A stretch of 20,008 nucleotides of DNA, taken from positions 1 through 20,008 of IMG/VR virus record IMGVR_UViG_3300028462_000071; one strand, written 5' to 3'. Origin of the DNA: a virus. Shown here in pieces: positions 2,074 through 4,878 of this stretch. The notes under the pieces were generated by a model that had not been told where the DNA came from, made no database searches, and was given only the letters and a program-made list of their open reading frames with translations. How positions within the stretch are numbered: the stretch's first letter is position 1; every line of letters starts with the position of its first letter. A program made the translations under genes and the position numbers.

Positions 2074-2397
2074 GGGTGCAATGAGCTCGAGAGGCGGCAA
2101 CGCCCGGCGGGAATTGCCGGGGACTTACCGCAACTACGGCGAAACCGCGAAACCGGTGCCACGGGCGAAGGGTTGCCGCAGCTTACGCACTTGGAGCGCG
2201 CCACAGGTGCAGACCAACGACGCACGCCGGCCCGGCGGCCACGTGCGCCGCGACTACAGCGCGGCGACCGGCGGCACGAAGGCCTGAACCTCGCTTTTCG
2301 CAGCTGGCCGCTAACCTATGTGTCAAGTCGAGCGGTGAGGGTTTGCTTGGGCCATCCGCGCGCCGCGCAAACGGCGCCTGACATAGCGTTCAGATCC
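2074..2397. other. Intergenic region upstream of the S74 gene
   Basis: About 320 bp of GC-rich DNA with no supportable gene. A minus-strand TTGACA lies at 2321-2326, but nothing resembling a good -10 stands 16-18 bp downstream, so I do not call a promoter. The S74 gene's promoter is probably in this stretch. The last 10 bp (2388-2397, GTTCAGATCC) are the left copy of the direct repeat flanking the next element. Confidence 0.5.
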
Positions 2398-2562
2398 GAA
2401 TGGCACTTACTTAGGCGAAAGTCTGACCAAATTTGCCGTCATTCCAGCGGAAGCTGGAATCCATTTTGACTTTTGCGGCATGTCCGAAGGGGATCAAGAT
2501 GGATCCCAGCTTTCGCTGGGATGACGAGATCTGGTGAGTTCACTCCTAAGTAAGTGCCATTC
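2398..2562. mobile_element. 165-bp MITE-like palindromic element
   Basis: The element is bounded by a perfect 18-bp terminal inverted repeat: GAATGGCACTTACTTAGG at 2398-2415 and CCTAAGTAAGTGCCATTC at 2545-2562. GTTCAGATCC occurs immediately left (2388-2397) and again one base to the right (2564-2573), which looks like a target-site duplication of about 10 bp. There is no coding capacity. Inside sits a near-palindrome (2437-2526). The flanking spacers 2416-2436 and 2527-2544 are also loosely inverted, so almost the whole element can fold back on itself. TIR plus TSD without a transposase is the definition of a MITE. The mobilising transposase family is unknown. Confidence 0.75.
2437..2526. repeat. 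REPIN-like pair of inverted palindromic units
   Basis: Arms 2437-2469 and 2494-2526 are reverse complements at 29 of 33 positions around a 24-bp centre. Each arm holds its own perfect 8-bp hairpin with a 4-base loop: ATTCCAGC/GCTGGAAT at 2441-2460 and ATCCCAGC/GCTGGGAT at 2503-2522. This architecture, two REP-like hairpins in inverted orientation, matches REP doublets (REPINs), known to be scattered through intergenic DNA of gamma- and betaproteobacteria. Here it forms the core of the TIR-bounded element. Confidence 0.75.
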
Positions 2563-2573
2563 AGTTCAGATCC

Positions 2574-3172
2574 GCTTCTGGCCGAGGCGGTTTGAAAACT
2601 CTAGACGCTTAGCGAGCCTTGCCTTCCTTTGATTACTTTTTGACCGCGGCAATTCCTGGAGCGCGTTTTCACGCAGCCTCGGCGGGAAGCCGACTCCGAT
2701 GGTCGTGCATGCGCTCAGCACCAGCGTCTTGATCAGCGCTCGCCGAAACGGCTGATCACCTTTGCCGGAACGCGCAGTGGGGACATCGTTCGCGCCCAAG
2801 TTCCTTCCAAATCAGCCAACGCCAAACTTGGTAGACCCGCTGAAACCGCGCGACCAAAGGAAGTGAGACACCATCGGGACGCATCACAAACTTGGGTGTC
2901 GTTTCCAATCGTCCGGTTCGGCTCATCGAACGTCTTTCTTTGCGCCACAGGTCGCGTTGTGACAGTCGCCCTGCGAGAACACTCGGTGAAACCCTCGGTT
3001 TTGCGACGCGCGTCCTTGGGGGTCGCCCAAATGCGCAAGAATCCCAAGTAACCACGCATAAGAATTCACACAACTTTCGGGCCGAATCGGCGCTGTCGAC
3101 AGGGGCAAAAATCTGTCGGTGTAACAGGACCTGTCGCAGGACCAGTCACAAGCGAAAATCGGCCCCCGGAAA
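2574..3172. other. Intergenic region without a supportable gene
   Basis: About 600 bp with several overlapping short open frames on both strands, none with a convincing start, ribosome site or recognisable domain. Minus-strand frames give protein-like fragments split across frames, including RERCPHC near 2785-2765 and KTLVLSACTTIGVGFPP further downstream. This could be a decayed small zinc-ribbon gene, but the case is weak. The part next to the terminator (3080-3160) contains several CTGTCG words, including the palindrome CTGTCGACAG. I assign no function. Confidence 0.4.
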
Positions 3173-3209
3173 CAACAACGCCAGCGAGGATAAGTCGCTG
3201 GCGTTGTTG
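3173..3209 (-). terminator. Rho-independent terminator of the tRNA-Arg gene
   Basis: A perfect 15-bp stem (3173-3187 with 3195-3209) closes a 7-base loop. On the minus strand it is followed by TTTCC. It begins 10 bp after the encoded CCA end of the tRNA, where a tRNA transcript should stop. Confidence 0.85.
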
Positions 3210-3218
3210 CATTTTCAA

Positions 3219-3295
3219 TGGCGCGCCCGGAGAGATTCGAACTCCCGACCACCAAGTTCGTAGCCTGGTACTCTATCCAACTGAGCTACGGGCGC
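3219..3295 (-). tRNA. tRNA-Arg (anticodon ACG)
   Basis: 77 nt with encoded CCA (3219-3221). The acceptor stem GCGCCCG/CGGGCGC is perfect and the discriminator is G. The D-arm reads AGCTCAGTTGGATAGAG. The anticodon stem CCAGG/CTTGG closes the loop CTACGAA, with anticodon ACG at 3259-3261. The T-arm GGGAG-TTCGAAT-CTCTC has one G-U pair. The anticodon (wobble A is normally edited to inosine) reads CGU, CGC and CGA. Its 3' end faces away from the integrase, so this gene is not the obvious integration target. Confidence 0.97.
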
Positions 3296-3305
3296 GAAGC
3301 GGCGG

Positions 3306-3334
3306 ATTATGTATTCACCTGCCAAATTCGTCAA
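3306..3334 (-). promoter_or_regulatory. Sigma70-type promoter of tRNA-Arg
   Basis: On the minus strand, TTGACG (3329-3334) and CATAAT (3306-3311) are separated by exactly 17 bp, each one base off consensus. The -10 box ends 10 bp before the tRNA, so the leader would be only a few bases. The stretch after the -10 box is GC-rich (CCGCCGC), as in promoters under stringent control. The -35 box stands 21 bp from the first att-like repeat, so the promoter is spared by the prophage. Confidence 0.8.
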
Positions 3335-3355
3335 TAGAAAGACTGCGATTTGGCA

Positions 3356-3369
3356 TGGCGGAGTGGGAG
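3356..3369 (-). repeat. Candidate attL core, copy 1 (tRNA-Ser 3'-end-like)
   Basis: TGGCGGAGTGGGAG. On the minus strand this reads CTCCCACTCCGCCA, which parses as a tRNA 3' end: acceptor strand CCACTCC, discriminator G, CCA. A G73 discriminator is typical of tRNA-Ser. In this copy the match to a generic tRNA-Ser T-stem seems to run a few bases further (GGGAGGG). No tRNA body is attached. I infer a 3' fragment displaced by prophage insertion. Confidence 0.55.
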
Positions 3370-3375
3370 GGGCAA

Positions 3376-3412
3376 GCACGGACGCTTGCGAACCACAGGT
3401 TCGCGTCCGTGC
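3376..3412. other. Long hairpin between the two att-like repeats
   Basis: The left arm 3376-3394 pairs with the right arm 3398-3412 over 15 bp, with a 4-base bulge and a 3-base loop (ACA). There is no T-tract on either strand, so it is not an ordinary terminator. It may be a recombination or excision site, or a remnant of an earlier insertion. Confidence 0.5.
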
Positions 3413-3495
3413 GAGCGACCTTGCGCCAACGGCGCGAGGGCCGGGAATCCCGAACCAACGCGATGAATTCACTAGGATGACGCCGGACTTGCAAC

Positions 3496-3509
3496 TGGCG
3501 GAGTGGGAG
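3496..3509 (-). repeat. Candidate attL core, copy 2
   Basis: This is an exact second copy of the 14-bp TGGCGGAGTGGGAG, 140 bp from copy 1. The flanks diverge immediately on both sides. It lies about 140 bp upstream of the integrase start, a usual position for an att site next to an integrase gene. Which copy is the functional junction cannot be decided from this window. Confidence 0.5.
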
Positions 3510-3611
3510 TCTGCGACCTATCGTCCGCCGCTTTCCGCCCCGTTCCGAAATTCTCGCATAAAAAGGCCTGAACTGGCCAACCCTCCGCCGTACCCTTCCT
3601 GGCTGTTCCGC

Positions 3612-3651
3612 TATGATCCGGTGCCGGTAACGTGGGTAGGGGTGTGGGTAG
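3612..3651 (+). promoter_or_regulatory. Integrase leader with possible -10 box and repeated GTGGGTAG
   Basis: TATGAT at 3612-3617 could be a -10 box, though no good -35 precedes it. GTGGGTAG then occurs twice (3632-3639 and 3644-3651), 12 bp apart, the second touching the ATG. GTAGGGGTG at 3636-3644 contains the only purine-rich stretch that could serve as ribosome site. The repeated word over the initiation region could bind a regulator or the integrase itself; this is speculative. Confidence 0.3.
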
Positions 3652-4878
3652 ATGGCCAGGACGATCAACCGCCTGACGGCGAGAACCGTCGCCACAACCA
3701 CGACAGCAGGCTATCACGCGGACGGCGGCGGCCTCTATTTGCAGGTGACCGCCACCGGCGCGAAGTCGTGGATCTTCCGCTACGCCCGGCAAGGCAAGAG
3801 TCACGAGATGGGACTGGGTCCGGCCGCGGTCGTCGGGCTGCAGGACGCGCGCCAAGCAGCGCTGGCGCAGCGGAAGGTGCTCGCGTCAGGCGGTGACCCC
3901 CTCGCGGCGCGCAGGACCGCTCAGGCCGTGGCGCAGGGCCTCACGTTCGGCGCAGGCGCGACCACCTACATCGAGGAACATCGCACGGGCTGGTCGCTCA
4001 AGCACGCGACCCAGTGGGGCACGTCGCTCCAGCAGCATGGCGCGGACCTGTGGTCGCTGCCGATCGCCATCATCGGCACGGATCACGTCGTCGGGGCGCT
4101 GCGCCCGATCTGGGCTACGAAGACCGAGACGGCCACCCGGGTGCGCGAGCGCATCGCGCGCGTGCTGGACTGGGCTGTGGTCAAGGGATACCGCCAGGGC
4201 GAGAACCCGGCGAGGTGGCGTGGCCACCTGGACAAGCTGCTACCACCACCGAACGCGGTGCACAGCGTCGAGCACCACCCGGCCATGCCCTTCACCGACG
4301 TGCCAGCGTTCATGGCCAAGCTGCGCGATAACCTCAGCCTGTCGGCCCGAGCGCTCGAATTCACGGTGTTGACCGCCTGCCGGACCGGCGAAGTCATCGG
4401 CGCGCAACGGACCGAAGTCACCGGGGATCTGTGGACGGTGCCGGCCGAGCGGATGAAGGGCGGCCGGAAGCATGAGGTTCCGCTATCGGCCCAGGCGCTG
4501 GCCATCGTTGCGGCTATGCCTGCCAGCCGTGCGGCGATCTTCCCTTTGTCGAACGCCGCCATGCTGCAACTACTGGAAGGCATGGGGTTCGGCCAGTACA
4601 CGGTGCACGGCTTTCGCAGCAGCTTCCGGGACTGGGCATCAGAGACCACGGATCACCCGCACCAAGTGGTCGAGATGGCGCTGGCGCACTCGATCAAGGA
4701 TAAGGCGGAGGCGGCCTATCGCCGGGGTGCGCTGCTGGTGAAGCGGCGAGCGCTGATGCAGGCGTGGGCGGATTTCTGTGGGACTGCCGCCGCGCCCAAC
4801 AGCCTTACACGTGGGCCAGAAGAGGATCTCCGGGTTTCCCCGTCGACAGTGAAACGAAGGGCGCGGCGGCAGGGATAG
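3652..4878 (+). CDS. int: P4-type tyrosine integrase
   Basis: Site-specific recombinase that inserts and excises the phage, probably at a tRNA-Ser 3' end (see the repeats at 3356 and 3496). At 408 residues it has the usual length for the family. Residues 1-90 form the arm-binding DUF4102-type domain (GYHADGGGLYLQV, SWIFRYARQGK, GLGPAAVVGLQDAR). A SAM-like core-binding domain follows (about 95-200), then the catalytic domain. The full catalytic set is present: Arg244 (TACRTGE), Lys273 (GGRKHEVPLS), His319 and Arg322 (HGFRSSFRDWASE), His346 (LAHS) and nucleophile Tyr356 (AAYRRG). The basic C-terminal tail (VKRRARRQG) is typical. It is transcribed towards the late operon, which runs the other way. 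No excisionase is visible nearby. Confidence 0.95.
   Translation: MARTINRLTARTVATTTTAGYHADGGGLYLQVTATGAKSWIFRYARQGKSHEMGLGPAAVVGLQDARQAALAQRKVLASGGDPLAARRTAQAVAQGLTFGAGATTYIEEHRTGWSLKHATQWGTSLQQHGADLWSLPIAIIGTDHVVGALRPIWATKTETATRVRERIARVLDWAVVKGYRQGENPARWRGHLDKLLPPPNAVHSVEHHPAMPFTDVPAFMAKLRDNLSLSARALEFTVLTACRTGEVIGAQRTEVTGDLWTVPAERMKGGRKHEVPLSAQALAIVAAMPASRAAIFPLSNAAMLQLLEGMGFGQYTVHGFRSSFRDWASETTDHPHQVVEMALAHSIKDKAEAAYRRGALLVKRRALMQAWADFCGTAAAPNSLTRGPEEDLRVSPSTVKRRARRQG

Follow-up and report, generated by a model that had tools for sequence, protein, structure and literature searches.

A head-to-head CGTC REP pair between IS4-type ends: a probable non-autonomous element of the IS4 subgroup

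In the survey of Di Nocera et al. (2013; PMC3733652), REPs carrying a CGTC tag appear as free repeats that lack a transposase dedicated to them, a small number of sets being embedded in longer palindromes of unstated nature; this survey ended on the question of whether CGTC REPs are moved by some other enzyme. The locus analyzed here, located on an isolated virus record of which a stretch of 20,008 nucleotides (referred to as the window) was considered, raises this question for a single case: what are the inverted repeats enclosing a pair of such REPs, and which enzyme could have moved the enclosed unit?

Anatomy and genomic setting of the element

Direct reading of the sequence delimited an element of 165 bp at positions 2398-2562 (Table 1). 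In accordance with a preliminary description made from the sequence, perfect 18-bp terminal inverted repeats (TIRs), recovered by direct reading and by an inverted-arm search, enclose a non-coding palindrome, and the whole element is predicted to fold into a single hairpin of -100 kcal/mol (z = -14 relative to shuffled sequences). When up to three mismatches are allowed, the window contains exactly two occurrences of the inner 15-mer of the TIR, where 0.14 are expected. Neither the sequence nor its open reading frames revealed a transposase gene within the 165 bp; the element lacks what defines an autonomous insertion sequence (IS) and is therefore regarded as non-autonomous and not as an IS. 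A second copy was not found in the window record, and an Rfam search yielded no match at the element.

The sequence GTTCAGATCC is exactly repeated on both sides of the element (2388-2397 and 2564-2573) and had been described as a 10-bp target duplication followed by one extra base on the right. The repeat itself was confirmed; the extra base was not. Because 11 bp is the rule in the family presented below, a duplication of 11 bp in direct contact with both ends is the better reading. Its copies CGTTCAGATCC and AGTTCAGATCC differ by one substitution, and the presumed extra base is the first position of the right copy, altered by mutation.

The core comprises two complete CGTC-1-type REPs in head-to-head orientation. 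Both feature the CGTC tag, the 8-bp stem starting with AT, the 4-nt loop and the CCA tail by which CGTC-1 REPs were defined, and their arrangement corresponds to the head-to-head dimers in which these REPs mostly occur (PMC3733652). Unlike CGTC-1 REPs as described there, the pair in the window is bounded by transposon ends and target duplications. The earlier proposal of a REP doublet packed in transposon-like ends thus holds for this locus, the ends being of IS4 type. RAYT-mobilised REPINs are recognized by a GTAG tag and a cognate RAYT; the core of the element, being CGTC-tagged, does not belong to this class. The family as a whole shows the characteristics of MITEs, namely a length of 70-300 bp, TIRs of 15-30 bp, non-coding content and several copies at different sites, with one copy in the window record.

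Table 1. Features of the 165-bp element and its flanking duplication (window coordinates)
Feature	Position	Strand	Basis
Left copy of the 11-bp target duplication, CGTTCAGATCC	2387..2397	+	Direct reading; 11-bp rule and consensus of the family
Left terminal inverted repeat, GAATGGCACTTACTTAGG	2398..2415	+	Direct reading and arm search; fits the IS4-subgroup end pattern of PMC2266710
REP 1, CGTC-1: CGTC tag, 8-bp stem ATTCCAGC/GCTGGAAT, loop GGAA, tail CCA	2437..2463	+	Definition in PMC3733652
Spacer separating REP 1 and REP 2	2464..2499		Direct reading
REP 2, CGTC-1, head-to-head with REP 1: CGTC tag, stem ATCCCAGC/GCTGGGAT, loop GAAA, tail CCA	2500..2526	-	Definition in PMC3733652
Right terminal inverted repeat, perfect copy of the left one	2545..2562	-	Direct reading and arm search
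Right copy of the target duplication (11 bp), AGTTCAGATCC, altered at its first base	2563..2573	+	Direct reading; target consensus

The element is located between a tRNA-Arg gene (ACG; 3219-3295, minus strand) and a leftward gene (1-2100), and the tRNA gene separates it from a tyrosine integrase (3652-4878) and a tail gene cluster. We infer that it probably sits in the host chromosome next to a prophage. The exact 18-mer TIR was absent from viral contigs, and a relaxed 16-mer was found at 18 viral loci, none of which has a paired end, so that the element was not treated as a phage element. Among phage and plasmid collections, similarity at the DNA level was confined to a REP-core match in one Azospirillum plasmid.

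Core-like, near-identical REP pairs without any TIR were detected in six genomes of the order including Rhodanobacter, showing up to 84% identity to the core in the window and the same spacer start, ATCCATTTTGA. A palindromic core of a kind that also occurs free had been recognized previously, and these relatives provide examples. Since such pairs occur in this order, it is likely that the host belongs to it, as judged from sequence similarity. The flank at 2200-3660 matched 279 of 300 genomes of the order, the matches being dominated by tRNA-Arg, and searches with the tape-measure, integrase and window 1-2100 proteins returned distant relatives only.

Further observations concern the surroundings. 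The product of the gene at 1-2100 has a signal-like N-terminus and, at its C-terminus, an S74 endosialidase-chaperone domain; it also contains repeated GGG/N-rich segments. The tyrosine integrase lies on the 5' side of tRNA-Arg, which is uncommon for attachment sites carried by a tRNA. A GC-rich hairpin (3388-3420) is located between the tRNA and the integrase, and GGCGGAGTGGGAG is repeated at approximately 3358 and 3498.

Targets and full-length relatives sharing the ends

Bacterial genomes, one per species, were scanned with the TIR alone (query GAATGGCACTTACTTARG). At least 118 stretches were obtained, those among the matches listed originating mostly from Proteobacteria (Gamma- and Betaproteobacteria). 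Together with related genomes, the listed matches provided at least 73 short elements with inverted ends, 45 of which are flanked by an 11-bp repeat with at most one mismatch. Symmetrisation of these 45 reconstructed targets (from the matches listed and related genomes) resulted in the palindromic consensus AAA-GGGTCWGACCC-TTT. Within its 11 bp, conservation amounts to 86% for C5 as well as for G7. The target in the window has the TCAGA centre in common with this consensus. Moreover, a second target copy within 400 bp was observed for 8 of 52 targets (15%) vs. 1% of control words. The closest TIR-packaged relative among the loci collected (L205, target CTCTCAGATCC) is moderately similar to the window element, with 118 identities over 168 alignment columns. 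The TIR in the window ends with AGG, that of most relatives with AAG.

Full-length elements featuring the same TIRs and targets are 1500-1531 bp in size and encode a single IS4-family transposase each. Their transposases match the NCBIfam model IS4 NF033592 (E values of 3e-66 and 7e-64) and contain the motifs DGT and Y(2)R(3)E(6)K, the pattern Y..R...E......K being present in 7 of the 9 full-length elements checked. Within the Rhodanobacteraceae, the family to which the Rhodanobacter MITEs also belong, an element of 1519 bp (L259) possesses two perfect GAATGGCACTTACTTAAG ends and the duplication GTGTCAGGGAC, which is identical to the 11 bp at the REP-carrying MITE L025. In one genome (G010), a full-length element and a MITE occur together. 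At the cut-off used, no matching transposase gene was found in the MITE-bearing genomes G001, G002, G003, G004, G384 and G406, and many MITE copies may therefore be relics. The preliminary description had suggested a search for copies with different flanking duplications of 9-11 bp and for a full-length transposon with the same TIR; both exist, the former being TIR-bounded with duplications of about 11 bp, the latter having a size of about 1.5 kb and an IS4-family transposase.

As a separate observation, the intact IS4 element at L259 (1340-1405) carries CGTCGTCATCCCC immediately inward of its left TIR. This sequence resembles the beginning of a CGTC REP, and the related left end at L305 has another sequence at this place.

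For the IS4 subgroup, De Palmenaer et al. (2008; PMC2266710) specify ends of the pattern -AATR--------WTW----, duplications of 10-13 bp, full-length sizes of 1400-1650 bp and a DDE transposase with the YREK motif; strong target specificity is reported there for some members. The family described here resembles this subgroup in its ends, duplication length, full-length size and YREK motif: GAATGGCACTTACTTAGG features AATG at positions 2-5 and TTA at positions 14-16, the duplication in the window is 11 bp with one mismatch, as are 11 bp the rule among relatives, and full-length relatives with the same ends lie within the size range and encode the corresponding transposase. The window element differs from the subgroup by having no transposase gene, and neither MITEs nor REP cargo are described in the available text of that work. 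An IS231-type element, first suspected from the target pattern, was dropped, as IS231 ends begin with CAT.

Of two empty-site matches, a check also proposed earlier, one is clean. For MITE L284, the two flanks meet at a single target in a relative (genome G488), where no insert is present (82% identity over 240 bp). The relative of L205 carries no insert, but does not qualify as a clean empty site because it also lacks most of the target copy.

Considering the known chemistry of the IS4 family, movement would proceed by cut-and-paste in trans. An IS4-subgroup DDE transposase, supplied in trans, would recognize the 18-bp ends, cut the element out and insert it at a palindromic 11-bp target, thereby duplicating the 11 bp; the target would be GGGTCWGACCC between A-rich and T-rich arms. 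The REP pair may have been acquired from among the free REPs of the host and subsequently amplified along with the ends.

REP cargo and interpretation of the element

In order to avoid bias, REP counts were limited to elements from the TIR-only scan (n=44, among the matches listed). Tagged REP hairpins were present in 23 of these 44 elements (16 CGTC, 7 GTAG), and 21 contained neither type. Within the same listed elements, CGTC hairpins reached 4.05 per kb inside vs. 0.32 per kb in the 400-bp flanks and GTAG hairpins 2.10 vs. 0.14 per kb, corresponding to a 13-15 times higher density inside, whereas six control tags showed no comparable excess (0.16-0.65 inside vs. 0.20-0.43 per kb in the flanks). 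Furthermore, the interiors of the at least 73 elements fold far better than shuffled sequences (median z of -5.3, neighbours -0.2), with a p-value of approximately 1e-23 that is generous because copies are non-independent and part of the set was fetched for the REP core. In genome G384 (L233, L268 and L205, L223), two unrelated palindromes, a CGTC REP pair and a CCCTCTCCCC-type sequence, were noticed in the same kind of ends; the second packaged palindrome has shorter matches elsewhere in that genome.

Based on the ends, the YREK motif, the size, the duplication length, the REP enrichment and the clean empty site, the element is very probably a non-autonomous (MITE-type) member of the IS4 family, IS4 subgroup, having a head-to-head CGTC-1 REP pair as payload and being moved in trans into an 11-bp palindromic target. 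Points that speak against it are the single copy in the window record, the moderate similarity of L205, the AGG terminus of the TIR, the second empty-site match, which is not clean, and the MITE-bearing genomes in which no matching transposase gene was found at the cut-off used. The preliminary description is supported in outline, since it had proposed a REP doublet in transposon ends, a long duplication and a transposase encoded elsewhere; those of its checks that could be carried out all gave positive results.

Other origins have to be weighed against this interpretation. REP pairs could have been placed by an enzyme of their own into pre-existing large palindromes, as was proposed for some REP families in 2013, the ends then not being transposon ends. 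The CGTC-1 dimers of H. neapolitanus and the GTAG-15 dimers of A. variabilis, which lie inside longer palindromes (PMC3733652), would agree with such a scenario. It is nevertheless improbable, as the same ends bound full-length elements encoding IS4 transposases, as the 11-bp duplications next to these ends follow one target consensus, and as the entire unit, together with its ends, is missing from the empty site of L284. A pure coincidence, in which an inverted repeat and a short direct repeat surround a REP pair by accident, has the missing second copy in the window record as its only point. It is contradicted by perfect 18-bp ends common to IS4 elements, by a duplication length that holds across the family and by the target consensus, and the number of stretches recovered by the TIR-only scan refutes it, leaving it a negligible chance.

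The element could also have arisen from an IS4 element by ordinary internal deletion, its REPs having happened to lie in the parent IS. Ends identical to those of full-length elements are compatible with this origin, as is the partial CGTC motif right after the left TIR of L259. On the other hand, comparison of the at least 73 MITE interiors with the 9 full-length interiors yielded no meaningful match, except for a single one of 15 bp, so that the MITE interiors are not simple deletion products of these nine elements. Moreover, interiors fall into 32 clusters among the elements collected, the REP excess over the flanks among the matches listed also argues against deletion, and none of the loci collected contains a full-length IS4 element that has this REP pair together with its inner flanks. 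An origin by deletion is accordingly as poorly probable as the insertion of REPs into existing palindromes.

Each part of the favoured interpretation, a REP dimer carried by a non-autonomous IS4-subgroup element, is known by itself. The 2013 survey reported REP dimers in larger palindromes, and a precedent for a REP within a MITE is QMITE2 of Coxiella burnetii (PMC5896051), a 150-190-bp element whose small, TIR-less versions resemble free REPs. Its parent transposase was not identified in that study, and full-size copies were described from one species. The window element is likewise a small MITE containing REP sequences, but QMITE2 harbors a GTAG REP and TIRs of 17-31 bp, and its flanking duplications vary in sequence and mostly measure 7-9 bp (13 bp in one case), in contrast to the CGTC REPs and the 11-bp duplication found here. 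No description of the TIR sequence, or of REPs combined with MITEs and IS4 ends, was found in the open-licence literature; the same applies to the attribution to IS4 ends and to the recurrence across REP superfamilies.

That two REP superfamilies and other palindromes recur between transposon ends of one kind calls for an explanation. Tentatively, and with odds against it, IS4-subgroup transposases might act as a general REP vehicle: their ends may have repeatedly captured whichever REP pair (CGTC or GTAG) was abundant in the host, CGTC REPs may spread in IS4 coats and be freed when the ends decay, and the hairpin might favour capture or mobility, e.g., by joining the ends. The wrapping of many different REP hairpins by the same ends in other bacteria suggests a possible route for REPs without a known transposase, and IS4-subgroup transposases represent a concrete candidate for the enzyme that the 2013 survey asked for. 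The 18-bp handle and the 11-bp target rule can be searched for in any genome and are testable at the bench.

RAYT- and TIRYT-associated repeats as a possible insertion target

RAYT-like (TIRYT) elements carry terminal repeats with the motif GGGGWSAS (PMC3733652), which resembles the insertion target of the IS4-type ends. RAYT- and TIRYT-associated repeats are thus a possible target, and not a relative, of the element. Insertion into RAYT/TIRYT termini as a general rule was rejected, since a match within 1.5 kb was obtained for 3 of 44 loci (crude protein search, among the matches listed); these three protein matches overlap the MITEs themselves. Genome G003 has one IS4-type end inside a TIRYT-type repeat at L318, next to a Y1 transposase gene, and a second end that abuts such a repeat at L305. 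At L318 (900-2200), the Y1 transposase gene is flanked by several ACCTGACCCCTTGCTTCC-type repeats, one of which is interrupted by the IS4-type, REP-carrying end.
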